Below, in pieces: positions 11,743 to 25,862 of a DNA stretch of 26,574 bases. The notes below the pieces were generated by a model. The model was not told where the DNA came from, made no database searches, and saw only the letters and a list, made by a program, of their open reading frames with translations. Both the position numbers and the translations under genes were made by a program. The stretch is from a virus. Within the stretch, counting starts at the first letter, position 1. Each line of letters begins with the position of its first letter. The DNA is taken from IMG/VR virus record IMGVR_UViG_3300035698_010397, positions 1-26,574 of that record. One strand, 5' to 3'.

Positions 11743-11879
11743 AAACATACGATGGCTCTGGCGATGGCTCTGGCTATGGCGATGGCTCTGGCTATGGCTC
11801 TGGCTATGGCGATGGCTCTGGCTATGGCTCTGGCTATGGCGATGGCTCTGGCTATGGCTATGGCGATGGATCTGGCTGA
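11730..11879 (+). CDS. Gly-rich decapeptide-repeat protein
   Basis: A 49-aa protein starting at ATG 11730 (AGAGG 8 nt upstream): MEELKTY followed by alternating DG, SG and YG dipeptides. A ten-residue unit DGSGYGSGYG (30 nt) is repeated almost exactly from about 11782. It overlaps the DUF6948-like gene, which supports this frame over the Ala/Met-rich frame on the same strand or the Ser/His-rich frame on the other. It is likely disordered or fibrous, and the tract is prone to change in repeat number. Function unknown. Confidence 0.6.
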   Translation: MEELKTYDGSGDGSGYGDGSGYGSGYGDGSGYGSGYGDGSGYGYGDGSG

Positions 11880-12580: not shown

Positions 12581-13918
12581 ATGAATGAAACACTCAAGAT
12601 TCTAAAACTAACGACAAAGAACATAATGGGCATCCAGGCCGTCGAGATCACGCCAGACAGCAATGTGATAACGGTAGGGGGTAAGAACGGACAGGGCAAA
12701 ACATCGCTGTTAGAATCAATCGTCATCGCTCTGGGCGGTAAAAAACACGCATGCAAAATGCCGTTGCGAGAAGGCGAAAAAAAGGGCGAAGTGTCAATCG
12801 ATCTGGGAAAGTATATTGTGGATCTGACAATTCCCAAAGTCGGCAGCTGGAAAATTCAGATAACCGATGCCAAAACGGGCACAGCCTATCCATCGCCGCA
12901 GACTTTGCTGGACAGCTTCAAAGGCGATTTGACTTTTGACCCGCTGGCATTTTCCAGGATGGATCTGAAAGAAAAACTGGTGACATTGCAAAAGCTGCTC
13001 GGGCTGGATTTTTCCCAGCTGAATCTTTCCCGCAAGAATCTGTTTGATACCCGGACGATTTCAAACCGTGAAGTCAAATCGCTGCAATCACAACTTGATT
13101 CGATGCCATACAAAAGCGGAGTCACAGAGGAAGTTGTGATTTCTGAACTGATCTCTACATTGCAAGAAGCGGATACACACAACAAGAATAATGAGACTGA
13201 ACGACAAAGATTTGAGGCATCTGCACGCGATATATTGACTGTCCAATATAATCATCAGGCATTGCTGCAACGGATAGAAGAGTTCAAAAAGGATGAACTC
13301 GCCCAGCGTGAAAATCTTCTGCTTATGAAAAGCCAGCTTGCCGAGGCACAAACACATATCGATGGACTTGTTGACATCGAGACTGATGATATAAAACACC
13401 AGTTTGAAAACGCAGAAAAAACGAATCAGTATTTCAGGGACAATCAAGCGTATGATAATGCCGAGGACAGACTGAAAACTGCAAACGCCGAGTCAGAATC
13501 ATTGACGGATAAGATCATAGCGATTGATGCAGACAAAATTGACCAGCTTGCAAAAGCAACATTCCCGATTGACGGAATGAGTTTCGATGAGGATGGAATA
13601 TATTTTAACGACTTGCCATTGGATCAGGCTTCAAGTGCTGAACAGCTTCGCATTGCAGTTGCGATGGCTATGGCGATGAATCCAGAATTGCGGATCATGC
13701 TTGTCAGGGACGGCAGTCTGCTTGATGAGAATTCTCTCAAGATGCTTTGCGATGCTGTACAGCGGAATGACTATCAGCTCTGGCTTGAGGTTGTCCGCGA
13801 GGACGAAACTTGCAGCGTGATTATTGAAGGTGGTCAGATAAAAGAGAAACACAGCCAGGCCGAAATTGATGAAGCAAATCACAATGACGAACTATTTAGA
13901 AAAGGACGAATGAAATAA
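12581..13918 (+). CDS. RecF/SMC-type AAA ATPase of the recombination module
   Basis: A 445-aa protein. Walker A GKNGQGKT is at 34-41 (Lys40). Residues 150-320 form long charged coiled coils. An ABC-signature-like SSAEQLR lies at 351-357, and a Walker B-like LRIMLVRDGSLLDE at 370-383, with Asp377 or Asp382/Glu383 as catalytic candidates. Head domains joined by a coil are the SbcC/RecN/RecF plan, and phages often place such an ATPase beside a YqaJ exonuclease and RecT. The likely role is DNA-end handling in recombination or repair. Its TAA overlaps the next ATG. Confidence 0.8.
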   Translation: MNETLKILKLTTKNIMGIQAVEITPDSNVITVGGKNGQGKTSLLESIVIALGGKKHACKMPLREGEKKGEVSIDLGKYIVDLTIPKVGSWKIQITDAKTGTAYPSPQTLLDSFKGDLTFDPLAFSRMDLKEKLVTLQKLLGLDFSQLNLSRKNLFDTRTISNREVKSLQSQLDSMPYKSGVTEEVVISELISTLQEADTHNKNNETERQRFEASARDILTVQYNHQALLQRIEEFKKDELAQRENLLLMKSQLAEAQTHIDGLVDIETDDIKHQFENAEKTNQYFRDNQAYDNAEDRLKTANAESESLTDKIIAIDADKIDQLAKATFPIDGMSFDEDGIYFNDLPLDQASSAEQLRIAVAMAMAMNPELRIMLVRDGSLLDENSLKMLCDAVQRNDYQLWLEVVREDETCSVIIEGGQIKEKHSQAEIDEANHNDELFRKGRMK

Positions 13919-14061
13919 TGTTCAAGAATAAAAAACTAAAAACATTGGAATGTGAATTGGTACAGGCAAACATCGAAAGCAAGAAAGCATTTGCAGAACT
14001 GCTGCGTGCTCAAACACGCAGGGAAAATGCAGAGGCAAGCCGTATCGAAAAGGACGAATGA
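13918..14061 (+). CDS. Small coiled-coil protein
   Basis: A 47-aa protein coupled to the ATPase by TAATG at 13916-13920. It is charged and helical (KTLECELVQANIESKKAFAE), with heptad-like Leu/Ala spacing and the C-terminus RIEKDE. The 21 nt spanning its start region (13900-13920) recur exactly at 14048-14068, over its stop and the next gene's start, so this gene sits between two copies of the same junction. It is probably expressed, given the overlaps. Function unknown. Confidence 0.55.
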   Translation: MFKNKKLKTLECELVQANIESKKAFAELLRAQTRRENAEASRIEKDE

Positions 14062-14065
14062 AATA

Positions 14066-14842
14066 ATGAGTGACATAAAATATTTGAAAAACGGGCAGGA
14101 AGTAACGGTCGAAAGAGATTTGGGTGATGACGGTTTTTTGGTCGATATTCATATGTGCTGTTTTTATGAAGGCGAAACGTTTATGGAGCCTTCTGGGAGG
14201 CTGATGATTGTTGATACTGTTTTTGATAATGCCCCCGTCGAAAAGATTCAAGAAGAATATGGAATCGTTCTTGCAAAAGTCAATGAATCAAAAATAGTGT
14301 TTTCAGAGTTGACTATGAAAATCAGAGTTGCAAAAAACGAACTTGAAAAAATCGAACGGCAAAAGACTGACTTGTCAAAACTCATAATCAATCGTGGGGA
14401 GTTGAAAAATGCCAAGCGGATAACCGTGTTTACAAAAGATAATATACTTCCTGTCGAGGGAAAACCAGAGAGGGATTTAAAAATCAATTTATCATTCAAA
14501 CTTATCAGCGGAGAGGAACGTTCTTGGGCCTATTCTTTCGACGGTGACCACTGGTCAAATGGTAATTATTTTGATAATGATTATGGGATTTTATACGACT
14601 TGACCGACAAGGAGGTTGACCGAATTACGTTTGAAAGAGCTGCAAGCAAGCCCAATGGTTTTTTCGGCGATCGTGAAATACTACGAACAGACTCTAGGTA
14701 TCTGCCTGCCGAGCTTATGATAAGAAAGAATGAATTGCTCGAAGCAAGTGTAAGGTCTGAAAAAAAATTACTTGAAAAAAAGATTTCAGAGACCAAAAAG
14801 GAACTGGATGAACTTAACGAAAAGGACGAGTCATGCCAATAA
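14066..14842 (+). CDS. Hypothetical protein with coiled coils
   Basis: A 258-aa protein. ATG at 14066 is preferred, 14 nt after AAGGA; the same frame runs upstream to 13952 but would overlap the preceding gene completely. Residues 1-60 look beta-rich (EVTVERDLGDDGFLVDIHMC). A coiled coil spans about 66-115, a central globular part includes FKLISGEERSWAYSFDGDHW, and a second coil closes the protein (RKNELLEASVRSEKKLLEKK onward). It lies between the ATPase and the exonuclease, so a role in recombination is possible, but no enzyme motif is visible. Confidence 0.6.
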   Translation: MSDIKYLKNGQEVTVERDLGDDGFLVDIHMCCFYEGETFMEPSGRLMIVDTVFDNAPVEKIQEEYGIVLAKVNESKIVFSELTMKIRVAKNELEKIERQKTDLSKLIINRGELKNAKRITVFTKDNILPVEGKPERDLKINLSFKLISGEERSWAYSFDGDHWSNGNYFDNDYGILYDLTDKEVDRITFERAASKPNGFFGDREILRTDSRYLPAELMIRKNELLEASVRSEKKLLEKKISETKKELDELNEKDESCQ

Positions 14843-15735
14843 CAGAAGAGCAATTAAAAGCACGGCAGAAATGTATCGGCGGTAGTGATCTTGCAGCAAT
14901 CATGGGCCTTGACCCTTGGCGTACCCCATATGATGTCTGGCTGGATAAGACGGGCCAGCTCAATTCATTCGAGCCGAACGATGCAATGAAGGCTGGCAAC
15001 TATCTTGAAGATGGCGTGCTGAACTTCGCAGAGGATATCCTAGGGCATCTTGACAGGAACATGCACAAGGCTATTCTAGGCACACCGATTGCGGTCAATA
15101 CCGATGCTGTTGTCACAGATGGCTTTGTACCAGTTGAGGCTAAAACAGTTGGCCTTGCTTTCCCAACGAAAGAAGAATGGGGCGATGAGGGAACAGATCA
15201 GATCCCTGACCGAGTAATTATCCAGAGCACTGCCCACATGATGGCATGGGACAAGGACATCTGTCACGTCCCCGCTTTGATCGGCGGTGCTGGGCTTCGG
15301 ATGTATAAAGTGCGTAGGGATAACAGGATCGTTCAGACAATACGAGAATCCGCTTTCAAATTTTGGGATTGTGTAACGACTAAAAAAGCCCCGGAGGATT
15401 CAACGGCATCACTGGAAGTCGTCAAGCGAGTCCGGCGGCAGGCTGAGAAGATTGCAGCTATTGACCCTGATCTGGTTGCGGCATGGCTACAGGCCAAAGA
15501 TGAATTCAAAGAAGCCGAAAAAACATCGAAAGAAATTCAGGCACGATTGCTGACTGCTCTTGGCGATGCGGAGGCAGGCACGGCGGGGAACTATGGGGCT
15601 GTGACGTTTTTCTCGCAATCCAGGTGTGGGCTTGATAGGGATTCACTAAAGGCCGACCATCCAGAAATATTCAAACAATACTACCGTGAAGGAAAATCCT
15701 TCCGGGTACTCAGGCACAAAAAGAAAGGGCTATGA
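14833..15735 (+). CDS. YqaJ-type phage exonuclease
   Basis: A 300-aa protein; ATG at 14833 has AAGGA upstream and overlaps the previous gene by 10 nt. The N-terminus KCIGGSDLAAIMGLDPWRTP, then YDVWLDKTG, is diagnostic of YqaJ/lambda-exonuclease nucleases. The PD-(D/E)XK core shows Glu59 in NYLEDG, an Asp at 91 or 96, Glu102-Ala-Lys104, and Gln131 in IQSTAHMMAW. Such enzymes chew 5' strands from double-strand ends to make 3' tails for the RecT protein encoded next. C-terminal helices (about 200-250) are charged. Confidence 0.88.
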   Translation: MPITEEQLKARQKCIGGSDLAAIMGLDPWRTPYDVWLDKTGQLNSFEPNDAMKAGNYLEDGVLNFAEDILGHLDRNMHKAILGTPIAVNTDAVVTDGFVPVEAKTVGLAFPTKEEWGDEGTDQIPDRVIIQSTAHMMAWDKDICHVPALIGGAGLRMYKVRRDNRIVQTIRESAFKFWDCVTTKKAPEDSTASLEVVKRVRRQAEKIAAIDPDLVAAWLQAKDEFKEAEKTSKEIQARLLTALGDAEAGTAGNYGAVTFFSQSRCGLDRDSLKADHPEIFKQYYREGKSFRVLRHKKKGL

Positions 15736-15739
15736 AATC

Positions 15740-16738
15740 ATGGCAAAGAAAACACCAGAAACACCAGAAACACCAGCAGAAAACGTTCCAAGTGAAAATC
15801 CAATTTCGACAACTACATTTTCATATCAGCCATTGATGCAGGTGGGGACAACCGCAGGATTAAAAGGGCTTGCGGAAGTGATGAAATCAAAGATCGAAAG
15901 TATGCTGCCGAAGCACATCACGCCAGAGCGAATGTTGAAAGCTCTGTTTGTTGCGGTATCGAAAACCCCCCAGCTGTTGGAATGTACGCAAGAATCAATC
16001 GTCAAAAGCCTGATGGACGCGAGCAGCCTCGGGCTGGATTGTAGCGGCACGCTCGGGAGTGCGTATTTGGTTCCATTCAGGGCCAAGAAAAAAGATACAA
16101 ACGGACGGGACATATCTGTTAGTGAATGTCAGTTGATCCCCGGTTATCGCGGCTTGATCGATCTGGCCCGGCGTGGTGGTGAAATAGCTGTCATCGAGGC
16201 CCACGTCGTTTATGCTCAGGACAAATTTGATATTGAATATGGAACTGTGAATAAGATTTTTCACAAGCCATATCTGGGAGCAGATCGGCTAGAAGAATAT
16301 ACAGGATTTTACGCTGTTGCAACTTTTCGGGATGGAATAAAACAGCCTGAATTTATGACGGTTGCAGACGTGAACAAAATCAAAGAGAAGAGCAAGGCCA
16401 AGTACGGGCCTTGGGTGGATCATTTTTCAGAAATGGCCCGAAAAACCGTTGTCAAGCGGCTTTGCAAATATTTGCCATTGTCACCAGAACTCGAACAAGC
16501 GATCCAGATCGACAATGAAACCAGCGGAGGCGAAGTGAGTTTTGCCACGGTATCAATCGGTGGGACTGAAAAGGCATTGAATCGTGTCGATTCGCTTGCG
16601 GGCAGATTGGAATCTGACAAACAAAATATCCCCGACGTAGCCGGTGAAACTTTCGTTAAGGAAACCGGCGAGGTTATCGAAAACGACAAACCAGCGGACG
16701 ACTCTGTTGCGGATGTGAAACCCGGTTCGCTTTTGTAG
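15740..16738 (+). CDS. recT: RecT single-strand annealing protein
   Basis: A 332-aa protein. ATG at 15740 is chosen because it follows AAAGGGC; the frame is open back to 15686, inside the exonuclease gene. Residues 1-25 are a Thr/Pro/Glu leader. The core matches RecT: MLKALFVAVSKTPQLLECTQ, then LDASSLGLDCSG-type and YLVPF segments, QLIPGYRGLIDLARRGGEI, GFYAVATFRDG, and a C-terminal MARKTVVKRLCKYLPLSPEL. RecT coats 3' single strands and anneals them to complementary DNA. Its pairing with YqaJ is the classic phage recombination pair. The last 60 residues are acidic and probably flexible. Confidence 0.9.
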   Translation: MAKKTPETPETPAENVPSENPISTTTFSYQPLMQVGTTAGLKGLAEVMKSKIESMLPKHITPERMLKALFVAVSKTPQLLECTQESIVKSLMDASSLGLDCSGTLGSAYLVPFRAKKKDTNGRDISVSECQLIPGYRGLIDLARRGGEIAVIEAHVVYAQDKFDIEYGTVNKIFHKPYLGADRLEEYTGFYAVATFRDGIKQPEFMTVADVNKIKEKSKAKYGPWVDHFSEMARKTVVKRLCKYLPLSPELEQAIQIDNETSGGEVSFATVSIGGTEKALNRVDSLAGRLESDKQNIPDVAGETFVKETGEVIENDKPADDSVADVKPGSLL

Positions 16739-21571: not shown

Positions 21572-21640
21572 AGCCTTGGCAAGAGTTCACACCTACTCAG
21601 TAGTTGCGTTTCACGCTCTTGACCAAGGCTTTTTATTTTT
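21572..21640 (+). terminator. Strong rho-independent terminator before the replication genes
   Basis: AGCCTTGGCAAGAG at 21572-21585 pairs with CTCTTGACCAAGGCT at 21616-21630, with a single A bulge. The loop carries its own CTAC/GTAG hairpin at 21593-21603. TTTTATTTTT follows at 21631-21640. It separates the csrA array from the replication operon, so either a promoter lies within the 21525-21654 gap (none clear to me) or readthrough is regulated. Confidence 0.8.
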
Positions 21641-21654
21641 AAGGATTCATCGAT

Positions 21655-22473
21655 ATGCAAGATGATAAAAAATCGGTTATTCTGTATCAAGTTATCGACT
21701 GGGAAAATAATTTTGAAGGTTCCCGGACGAAAACATACAACAACAAAACATCTTGCCAAATGCCGACCAAACACGGGCTGGGATACAATAAATTGATCCG
21801 GCAAAAAAACGGGGCGGCGATCTTTGGTGCTTGGTGTTCGATGATTCAAATCTTGAGCAGGCATCCAAAACCACGTCAGGGACACTGCACTGACACCGGA
21901 GGTGCTTCGGGGTGTCCGTACACTGACAGTGATTTGTCCATTTTGACAGGAATCCCGGCATCGATCTTTTTAGAGCTTTTCCAAGTGGCTAGTAGCCCAG
22001 AGGTTATGTGGCTGCGTACACTACACGTTCACCGTAGTGACACCGTAGTGACCCCGCAGTGTCCCCTTTACTCAGACTCAGACTCAGACTCAGACTCAGA
22101 CTCAGACTCAGACTCACAAAAAGCCCCGGAAGTGGATTCTGACGGAAAGAAAAAAACCAAGAAAAAAACAGCGGAGGTGATTTTTCCTGAAAACCTTCAA
22201 AATCCTGAATTCAAAGCCGCGTGGGATTTATGGGTGGATCATCGAAAAGAGATCAAGAAGCCGTTGACCCCGACATCGATCAAAATGCAAATGAAGAAAT
22301 TCTCAGCCGAGGGGCCGGAATCGTCCATCAGGCGAATCGAGTACACTATCGAAAAAAGCTGGCAGGGGCTGGCTACAGACGAAATGATGTCCGGGGGGAG
22401 AATAGCGTCGAAATCTCAGGCAATCCCGCAGGCAGGCAAGACAGAGACTTATCCAGAGAGCACACGCAGATAG
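21655..22473 (+). CDS. Phage replication initiator-like protein
   Basis: A 272-aa protein with ATG at 21655 and AAGGATTC upstream. The N-terminal part (DWENNFEGSRTKTYNNKTSC, then GLGYNKLIRQKNGAAIFGAW and TDSDLSILTGIP) looks like the winged-helix region of phage O/DnaT-like proteins. Residues 140-154 are a Ser-Asp repeat linker. Residues 178-245 hold PENLQNPEFKAAWDLWVDHR, then KPLTPTSIKMQMKKF, a C-terminal domain common in phage replication proteins. The gene contains tandem iterons, as lambda O does, and the helicase gene follows downstream. Confidence 0.7.
   Translation: MQDDKKSVILYQVIDWENNFEGSRTKTYNNKTSCQMPTKHGLGYNKLIRQKNGAAIFGAWCSMIQILSRHPKPRQGHCTDTGGASGCPYTDSDLSILTGIPASIFLELFQVASSPEVMWLRTLHVHRSDTVVTPQCPLYSDSDSDSDSDSDSDSQKAPEVDSDGKKKTKKKTAEVIFPENLQNPEFKAAWDLWVDHRKEIKKPLTPTSIKMQMKKFSAEGPESSIRRIEYTIEKSWQGLATDEMMSGGRIASKSQAIPQAGKTETYPESTRR
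22031..22063 (+). repeat. Tandem 11-bp iterons, putative replication origin core
   Basis: ACCGTAGTGAC at 22031-22041 and 22042-22052 are identical; CCCGCAGTGTC at 22053-22063 matches at 8 of 11. Eleven is not a multiple of three, so the copies encode different residues (RSDT, VVTP, QCP); the repeat is conserved as DNA. An A-rich stretch follows at 22148-22175. An inverted GACACTGC copy lies at 21881-21888. Confidence 0.6.
22070..22117 (+). repeat. Hexanucleotide tract encoding a Ser-Asp linker
   Basis: Seven perfect ACTCAG units followed by ACTCAC, read in frame as alternating Ser and Asp. It forms an acidic linker between the two domains of the initiator-like protein and directly follows the iterons. 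Such tracts expand and contract by slippage. Confidence 0.85.
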
Positions 22474-22485
22474 AAAGGTGACGAC

Positions 22486-22770
22486 ATGAGAAAAGGAAAA
22501 TGTCAAAAATGTGGTAGGGTAGCCGCGAGGGTAAGACCCGATAAAACAGAATATGATTGTGGATCTTATCAATTTTTGCACGGAGCATTTATAGAGTCCA
22601 AACAGTGCCTACGCAATCAGCTTGCCCAAAAAAATGACGAGTTGACATACGAGCGATCAATTCCTATTGGCGAGAGAGTATGGAGTTCTGGCATCGACGC
22701 TGACGGGCTTGTCGAGACAACTTCTGTGAACGAATATATCAACTGGATCAGAGAAAAGAAAAGCCTATGA
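22486..22770 (+). CDS. Cys-containing modular phage protein
   Basis: A 94-aa protein; ATG at 22486 follows AAAGGTGACG. Cys6, 9, 25 and 41 may bind zinc. The segment KQCLRNQLAQKNDELTYERS is a short coil, and the end reads SIPIGERVWSSG. This head/coil/VW plan repeats that of the gene at 20134. Its stop overlaps the helicase start (ATGA). Confidence 0.55.
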   Translation: MRKGKCQKCGRVAARVRPDKTEYDCGSYQFLHGAFIESKQCLRNQLAQKNDELTYERSIPIGERVWSSGIDADGLVETTSVNEYINWIREKKSL

Positions 22771-24113
22771 ATGAATTTGAAAACATCAGAATTGTACCCC
22801 AGTCAATCGAAGCCGAAATGTGCGTCCTGGGATCGATGATGCTTGATACGAACTCAATCCCAATCGCAATAGAGCGGTTATGCTTGGATGACTTTTTCAG
22901 GCCGGAACATCATATTATTTGGCAATATATAATCAAGCAAACCGGGCCTGCGGCAGATCTGGTTGTGCTCAAAGAACAGATGGAGAATGACAGCAATCTG
23001 GCAAAAATCGGGGGCATCGGTTATCTGGTCAATCTGATTGACGGCGTTCCATCCTCTGCGAATATCAATTATTACATCGACATCGTGCGTGAGAAATCCA
23101 AAGGCCGCAAGTTGATTTCAATTGCAAACAAAATGACAACAGAGGCATTTGATAATACCGCACCTGCCGAAATAGTAAAAAACGCCCAGACATCGATGCT
23201 CGATCTTGTATCTGGTGAACAAAACTTTTCAACTGTTGGTCAGGCTGTTTCTGTTTTTGTAAAAGATGCGGGCGAATTCATGGCAGGTGATTCAAATCAA
23301 AATCTGCCGTACTACATACCGGATCTGGATTTTGCAACCGGGGGATTGCAGGCGGGTGAAATGTGTATCATTGCAGGCAAACCAGGCACGGGAAAAACTT
23401 CGCTTGTTATGACAGTGGCGATGAATCTCTGCCGGGCCGGGTATAACGGAATCGTTATCAATGCCGAAATGAGCAGCAAACAGCTGGCTGGTCGATTGGC
23501 TACGGCGATCGCAAGCGTTGACGGAAATGAAGTCAGGCGTGGGAAAATAAACGGCGAGGAATTCCAAAGATTAAAAGAAGCACAAAATGAAGTGAAAGAT
23601 TTCAAGTTGATGATTATCGACCGGGCATGCACAGTAGAAGAAATTTCGTTACACGTCAGGAAATGGCGGCATACCTGGGGGAAGGTCGATTTCGTGATTG
23701 TCGATTATATTCAACAGATGAAAACGCCCGGCAACAAATCCAGATATGAAGCTGTGACCGACATGGCCCGAGGTCTAAAAGATATTGCACTAGTGAATAA
23801 TGTCGCAATGTACGCTCTCGCCGCACTTCGGAAAGTTGACGACCGCAGGCCGACAAATGAAGATCTGAAAGATTCAGGTGAAATCGAATACGCAGCGGAT
23901 CAAATTATTTTATTACATCAGCCCGAATCGGTTGTGCTGGTGCGACAAATGACCGATCCCCCGATTTTGAATATGTACCCTGTCTGGGCAAAAGTTTCCA
24001 AAGATCGGGAAGGATCTCAAACACCCTGGCCCGATCAGAGTAAAGGCCCGGAGTATGGAATCAAATTGAGATTTTGCAAGGCAAGCAAATTATTCTTGCC
24101 GGAACCAAGATAG
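22767..24113 (+). CDS. dnaB: DnaB-type replicative helicase
   Basis: A 448-aa protein with the DnaB N-terminal domain (VPQSIEAEMCVLGSMMLD, then FFRPEHHIIWQYI) and the RecA-like C-terminal domain. Walker A AGKPGTGKTS is at 203-212 (Lys210), Walker B FVIVDYIQQM has Asp313, and DLKDSGEIEYAADQIILLH near 365-382 is the DnaB motif H4 region. It unwinds DNA at the phage fork, loaded by the initiator-like protein encoded upstream. The usual QLSR before motif H4 is AALRK, a small divergence. Length is normal for the family. No phage primase is visible in the window. Confidence 0.92.
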   Translation: MNEFENIRIVPQSIEAEMCVLGSMMLDTNSIPIAIERLCLDDFFRPEHHIIWQYIIKQTGPAADLVVLKEQMENDSNLAKIGGIGYLVNLIDGVPSSANINYYIDIVREKSKGRKLISIANKMTTEAFDNTAPAEIVKNAQTSMLDLVSGEQNFSTVGQAVSVFVKDAGEFMAGDSNQNLPYYIPDLDFATGGLQAGEMCIIAGKPGTGKTSLVMTVAMNLCRAGYNGIVINAEMSSKQLAGRLATAIASVDGNEVRRGKINGEEFQRLKEAQNEVKDFKLMIIDRACTVEEISLHVRKWRHTWGKVDFVIVDYIQQMKTPGNKSRYEAVTDMARGLKDIALVNNVAMYALAALRKVDDRRPTNEDLKDSGEIEYAADQIILLHQPESVVLVRQMTDPPILNMYPVWAKVSKDREGSQTPWPDQSKGPEYGIKLRFCKASKLFLPEPR

Positions 24114-24566: not shown

Positions 24567-25051
24567 GTTTTATTGTAGAGCCAAAACTAATCCAAATTAA
24601 AATCCCTGAATACGAAACCAGAAAGGGGTTTGAGGTTGCAGAATACATCGAAGGATACCCGAGAAAAGGTGACAACTATTGGGATGCCGATGTGAAAAAA
24701 TGGGTAAAAGCAAAAAACAAGCTAGTAAGCACAAAGCTTATTGCAATCGTTCGTGAATCCATTCCAGAAGTTGTCTTTGGAAAACTCGTCGTTACCCCAA
24801 ACCTAGATTATGCGGAAATGTCCGTACCGTATTATAAAATTCCTGGGCAGGATAAGCCAATACGCTATGACAAGCTCCACTCCATACCTAATTGGGGATT
24901 CAATGGATTTTGTTTTGATGGCGAATCCCAATTACACATAACGCCATTCTTGTTTGTTGTTAAAGAAGGATTGAGTTGTCAGATCGCCCTACCGTGTATT
25001 CAAATGACATACATACCGAAATATCTTGAAAGGATTAAAAATGCCAACTAA
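24536..25051 (+). CDS. Hypothetical phage protein
   Basis: A 171-aa protein; ATG at 24536 follows GAAAGGACAAACC. The Lys-rich N-terminus (MPAKKTKKT) precedes a mixed domain with EYIEGYPRKGDNYWDADVKK, then LVVTPNLDYAEMSVPYYKIP and a CFDGESQLHITPF segment. Four Trp and many Tyr suggest a compact globular protein. It directly precedes and overlaps the radical SAM gene, so the two may act together. No family recognised. Confidence 0.55.
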   Translation: MPAKKTKKTIGFIVEPKLIQIKIPEYETRKGFEVAEYIEGYPRKGDNYWDADVKKWVKAKNKLVSTKLIAIVRESIPEVVFGKLVVTPNLDYAEMSVPYYKIPGQDKPIRYDKLHSIPNWGFNGFCFDGESQLHITPFLFVVKEGLSCQIALPCIQMTYIPKYLERIKNAN

Positions 25052-25862
25052 AAAAGAAAAAAAAGCAAAAGTAAAAACCGGGGTACAGCAATGGGCAGAT
25101 GAAAGCGTGAATATTTGCACGGGCTGTAGCAACGCCTGTTTGTATTGCTACGGCAGAGATCAGATGCTTAACCGATACCACAAAATCCCAAATGGCCTTG
25201 ACTGGGAAAATGAAAAGGTCAGGCCGGCAGACGTTGCAAAGACTCGAACGAAAATCAACGGCGTTATCATGTTTCCAACAACGCACGACATCACACTGGG
25301 TAATCTCGAAGCCTGCACATCGGTTTTGAAAAAACTTCTGAAAGCTGGCAATCAAGTTTTGATTGTTACCAAGCCACGCAGGGAATGTATGAAAGCTCTC
25401 TTCACTGATCTTGTAAAATGGAAAGATCAAATTGAGTTCCGATTCTCAATAGGTACGCTGATGGAAAAGGTGCGGAAATTCTGGGAACCAAACGCACCAT
25501 CACTTGCGGAGCGATTCGACTGCCTTGGTGAAGCCAAATATTGCGGCTATAAATTATCAATTTCTTGCGAACCGTTGCTCAGCCCTTGGTCTGCTGCATT
25601 TCTGGTACATACGCTGGATTATACTTTTAAGCCGGACACGATCTGGATCGGCACGATGAATAATGTTGTCCGACGATGCCAGTGGATACTTCCACCAGAT
25701 CATCCAAAAATCGTCGAGCTTATGAAATGGCAAACGCCAGCAAAGATGCTGGAAATATATGAGAAGCTGAAAGACAACCCGAAAATTCTCTGGAAGGATT
25801 CTTATCAGAAAGTGATCGACGCAGCGTGTGAAAAGGACAAAGGAAATGCTAAGAAAATATGA
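25041..25862 (+). CDS. Radical SAM protein (phage, SPL-like)
   Basis: A 273-aa protein; ATG at 25041 follows AAAGGATTAAAA. The 4Fe-4S motif CxxxCxxC is Cys29, Cys33 and Cys36 in CTGCSNACLYCY. Later features fit the radical SAM barrel: TTHDITLGNLEACTSVLKKL, LKAGNQVLIVTKPRRE, RFSIGTLMEK, LSISCEPLLSP and TIWIGTMNN. It belongs with phage radical SAM proteins of the Gp37/Gp68 or DUF5131 type, related to spore photoproduct lyase. It probably modifies DNA, RNA or a nucleotide, but the substrate is unknown. Confidence 0.78.
   Translation: MPTKKEKKAKVKTGVQQWADESVNICTGCSNACLYCYGRDQMLNRYHKIPNGLDWENEKVRPADVAKTRTKINGVIMFPTTHDITLGNLEACTSVLKKLLKAGNQVLIVTKPRRECMKALFTDLVKWKDQIEFRFSIGTLMEKVRKFWEPNAPSLAERFDCLGEAKYCGYKLSISCEPLLSPWSAAFLVHTLDYTFKPDTIWIGTMNNVVRRCQWILPPDHPKIVELMKWQTPAKMLEIYEKLKDNPKILWKDSYQKVIDAACEKDKGNAKKI

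Follow-up and report, generated by a model that had tools for sequence, protein, structure and literature searches.

The initiator gene and its surroundings

The window analysed here is a stretch of 26,574 nucleotides of viral DNA (IMG/VR record IMGVR_UViG_3300035698_010397, positions 1 to 26,574). At 21655-22473, its plus strand carries an open reading frame for an O-like replication initiation protein of 272 amino acids, and this gene holds the putative replication origin described below. The C-terminal part of the protein alone (amino acids 150-249) matches PHROG 678, "replication initiation O-like" (E 4e-11). No Pfam family was matched at E values up to 1, including Phage_rep_O (PF04492), which lambda O matches at E 5.7e-36 in the same test. 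In the proteins of PHROG 678 a lambda-O-like N-terminus (lambda O amino acids 1-172, E 1.7e-35) is joined to the C-terminal domain found in the window protein and, by homology of its C-terminal half to this group, the window gene is a replication initiator. One small open reading frame separates it from the gene of a DnaB-type replicative helicase (22767-24113, plus strand), recognised by the Pfam DnaB_C (E 1.4e-47) and DnaB N-terminal (E 1e-24) families and by a match to PHROG 19. A preliminary description of this DNA had placed an origin inside an initiator gene, and both the PHROG 678 match and the DnaB gene downstream agree with that placement of the repeats.

The N-terminal domain (amino acids 1-124; 21655-22026, plus strand) was delimited with the help of relatives, and its predicted model (mean pLDDT 82) has a helix-helix-strand end. 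A fold search of this domain against the PDB gave no significant match. Among viral folds the best match was an uncharacterised phage protein (probability 0.99, TM 0.60), and weaker matches included replisome organisers; judging from the model and these folds, the domain is probably a winged-helix DNA-binding domain. The C-terminal domain (22174-22440, plus strand), recognised from relatives and their alignment, carries the motif RKEIKKPLT and is common to many phage initiators. Its model is helical (pLDDT 78), a fold search against the PDB returned nothing significant for it, and the domain is presumed to contact the helicase or its loader. Just upstream of the initiator gene, at 21572-21635, a strong hairpin is followed by a U-rich run (z -3.8 versus shuffles), an arrangement that looks like a terminator. 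A search of Rfam gave no match. Beyond the helicase gene, the protein encoded at 25026-25862 weakly resembles radical SAM families; its best NCBIfam hit (E 2.1e-8) does not reach the curated cut-off.

Three repeat arrays in the initiator gene

Three repeat arrays, with units of 11 bp, 6 bp and 12 bp, all fall within the initiator gene. The first consists of three tandem 11-bp iterons, CACCGTAGTGA, CACCGTAGTGA and CCCCGCAGTGT, at 22030-22062 on the plus strand; the third departs from the others at 3 of 11 positions. Tandem Repeats Finder (TRF) reports the array with period 11, 2.9 copies and 90% match at 22030-22061, and a shifted register reaches 22066. The tandem iterons noticed earlier are thereby confirmed, with a start at 22030 instead of 22031, one base off. 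It had also been pointed out that 11 is not divisible by three, so that the encoded peptides differ, and the units are indeed translated in three different frames, as HRSD, TVVT and PQCP. As a null, we permuted the gene's synonymous codons, which leaves the encoded protein and the codon pool unchanged; with the hexamer array masked, a tandem score as high as that of the 11-bp units arose in 3 of 20,000 permutations. Iteron-like sites in the initiator gene outside the array numbered 2 versus 1.6 expected, which is not above chance. An array at a single locus could stem from a recent duplication, and relatives were therefore examined. The original statement that selection must act on the DNA is for the same reason too strong for one locus, but evidence from the family makes such selection likely.

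The iterons are followed at 22070-22116 (plus strand) by an array of the hexamer ACTCAG, found by TRF with period 6, 7.8 copies and 100% match. It encodes alternating Ser-Asp, as expected of the acidic-linker repeat that had been described in this place. Within the array Ser is always encoded by TCA and Asp always by GAC, codons that are used elsewhere in 25% and 38% of cases; this codon use and a counterpart in a relative (see below) mark it as a putative second origin array. Next comes an A-rich stretch (22117-22169, plus strand), a candidate unwinding region, which contains the 12-bp repeat AAGAAAAAAACC at 22147-22169 (TRF: period 12, 1.9 copies, 100% match). The claim of an A-rich stretch after the repeats holds as far as A-richness and this repeat are concerned, but the A/T-richness is only moderate (approximately 64% over 22140-22200 versus 55% in the whole window) and the duplex stability of the stretch lies at about the 22nd to 50th percentile of the window. 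The purine bias of the second array was not beyond the codon null in the window (p 0.81) or in lambda (p 0.17), and near the putative origin there is no exact DnaA box. GC skew, suggested earlier as a check, showed no switch, a result that carries little weight because all genes point one way.

Linker repeats among relatives

No relatives were returned when the whole initiator was searched directly against viral and genome contigs or DnaB against viral contigs, nor by a DNA-level search of phages, and separate profiles for each domain were therefore required. Profile scans for the C-terminal domain supplied the best 80 of 249 viral relatives and 30 loci in bacterial genomes, which were reduced to 43 non-redundant genes with dissimilar linkers; the N-terminal parts and the repeat sequences differ widely among these relatives. 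The loci were collected by protein domains and not by repeats, so that there was no selection for repeats. In 32 of the 43 genes, the 270 nt leading up to the C-terminal domain contain a tandem repeat with a score of at least 26; this score was reached in two of the 43 for the 270 nt preceding these, in one for the following stretch, and in 10 of 1,148 background windows taken from other parts of these loci. Linker and background scores differed at Mann-Whitney p 5e-28, a value to be read with the loci being related and not fully independent. The comparison with relatives, which the preliminary description had proposed for its iterons, thus places tandem repeats in the linker at a matching position in most of these genes.

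Periods were surveyed in 58 genes, counting arrays beyond the codon null at p up to 0.05, a level at which 2.9 genes are expected. The commonest were 11 bp (22 genes) and 22 bp (21 genes), corresponding to one and two helical turns, and a second group comprised 5, 10 and 15 bp (15, 15 and 14 genes); period 4 occurred in 3 genes. None of the peak periods of 11, 22 and 5 bp is divisible by 3. The second arrays are located 3' of the iterons, with GGAAG, GGAAT, AGAAG and GAACA as typical units. The gene sets behind the period-11 and period-5 counts overlap and had already been inspected, and only six later relatives were fresh; among these six, examined after the pattern had been noted, a significant 5- or 10-bp array was present in five and a significant 11- or 21-bp array in three. 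Among the titles and abstracts listed from the open-licence literature, none described a two-array pattern running through the family, which is a weak absence.

The N-terminal domain led to a different set of relatives. It was matched in two of 392 genomes searched from the phylum of a Phycisphaerales MAG, and a profile including the proteins of those two genomes recovered a third genome and 29 viral loci. At the same threshold, the window protein had no match in 398 genomes from the phylum of a Methylococcales MAG. These sequence searches hint at a planctomycete-related host. The closest N-terminal relative, L133 (IMG/VR 3300009008_000192), is 56% identical in the N-terminal domain and likewise has 11-bp repeats and then ACTCAG/ACTTAG hexamers at the matching place. 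It differs from the window in having its own, unlike iteron sequence and an unrelated C-terminal domain, which is Phg_2220_C-like (E 1.2e-5, just below Pfam's cut-off). Between the hexamers of the window and of L133, 5 of 6 bases are kept while the encoded Ser is replaced by Leu. Furthermore, the window iteron has 9 of 11 bases in common with the iteron of some N-terminal relatives (p 0.003, uncorrected for the number compared). At locus L153 (3236-3298), also at L161 and perhaps at L154, a 21-bp repeat that resembles the linker iterons of relatives was seen within the part of the gene coding for the DNA-binding domain, where it apparently forms an inserted loop.

A putative origin embedded in the initiator gene

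We put at roughly 80% the probability that 22030-22170 is a phage replication origin embedded in the initiator gene, made up of iterons and then an unwinding array. In lambda, the origin lies within gene O, where iterons after the DNA-binding domain are followed by A-rich short repeats and then by the C-terminal domain (PMC7466680). Identical analysis of lambda O, whose iterons are annotated in the lambda record, gave periods of 20 and 23 bp for the iterons and then A-rich 7- and 15-bp repeats. The window likewise has a DNA-binding part, iterons, a second array and a C-terminal domain, in that order; the lambda-like order of initiator gene, iterons and next array, drawn attention to from the start, was checked in this way on lambda O itself and recurs at the DNA level in dozens of relatives. 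The window differs from lambda in its N-terminus, which lacks the Phage_rep_O match, in its three contiguous 11-bp iterons as against four of 18 bp, in a hexamer array in place of a clearly A/T-rich tract, and in the recognised helicase gene downstream, which encodes DnaB and not a P-type loader. The putative origin has the sequence features of the lambda type with the exception of a clearly unstable A/T tract. In V. cholerae ori2 the 5-nt motif 5'-(G/A)ATCA is recognised by the initiator, and repeats are present in the unwinding elements of other replicons (PMC10797057). The window resembles ori2 and iteron plasmid origins in that iterons adjoin repeats in the DNA predicted to unwind, but its arrays sit in the coding linker of the initiator, and the short units are ACTCAG in the window and GGAAN-type pentamers in relatives.

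According to this model, the N-terminal domains of initiator molecules would bind the 11-bp iterons and, since these are spaced one helical turn apart, the molecules would sit on one face of the helix. Binding would strain the adjoining DNA and allow the short-period array and the A-rich stretch (22070-22170) to open, and the C-terminal domain would assist in loading DnaB, the helicase whose gene lies downstream. We infer that initiator binding, DNA opening, helicase recruitment and the start of replication would all take place here.

Three other readings of the repeats were weighed. They might be operators through which the initiator regulates transcription of its own operon, the origin being elsewhere. 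It is likely that the initiator binds DNA close to where it is encoded, and operator and origin are indistinguishable by these sequence tests; however, the repeats lie in the middle of the gene, after the DNA-binding domain and not at a promoter, and in relatives they are accompanied by a second short-period array, as in lambda ori, and we regard operators as improbable. Slightly more improbable still, in our judgement, is that the repeats are a low-complexity protein linker or the product of recent slippage and have no role as DNA. The hexamer array does code for repeated Ser-Asp, and expansion is tolerated in disordered linkers, but periods of 11, 22 and 5 bp change the frame and, in many relatives, go beyond what synonymous-codon nulls give, the position of the repeats is conserved among them, and the hexamer is largely kept between the window and L133 in spite of the change from Ser to Leu. 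Very improbable is an origin at the 30-bp tandem array at 11750-11876, with the repeats of the initiator gene as a relic, as this array, although strong (4 copies, 96% match by TRF), has no initiator gene alongside and a unit unlike the iterons, and, when read as coding sequence, gives the dipeptide repeat MALAMALAMAM. The 11750-11876 array is composed of hexamer-like units and lies between two called genes.

An origin inside the initiator gene is of a known kind, and the newer part is the common two-array layout. As a tentative generalisation, to which we give somewhat less than even odds, a two-array origin cassette (iterons in helical spacing, of 11 or 21-24 bp, then tandem units of 5-6 bp) may be present in the linker of many initiator families and may accompany the DNA-binding domain through exchanges of the C-terminal domain, its short array acting by sequence, in strand capture or helicase loading, and not by mere A/T-richness. 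To our knowledge, a known origin is the exception among environmental phages; should repeats in the linker be a mark of the origin, sequence would suffice to call it in phages of these families. The widespread array of 5-6 bp units also leads to a testable question on how initiators open and hold DNA, namely whether the array acts by its sequence or by softness only. Moreover, the coding linker would be a case of constraint on the DNA itself, with drift in the peptide that it encodes.

Elsewhere in the window, genes for an ATPase, a YqaJ-type nuclease and RecT (12581-16738) have the same order as in the 70.9-kb virus contig L004 (7109-11191). A perfect 9-bp repeat in three copies, AAACACCAG, is located at 15750-15776 near the start of the RecT gene, and the RecT proteins of the window and of L004 are 53% identical.
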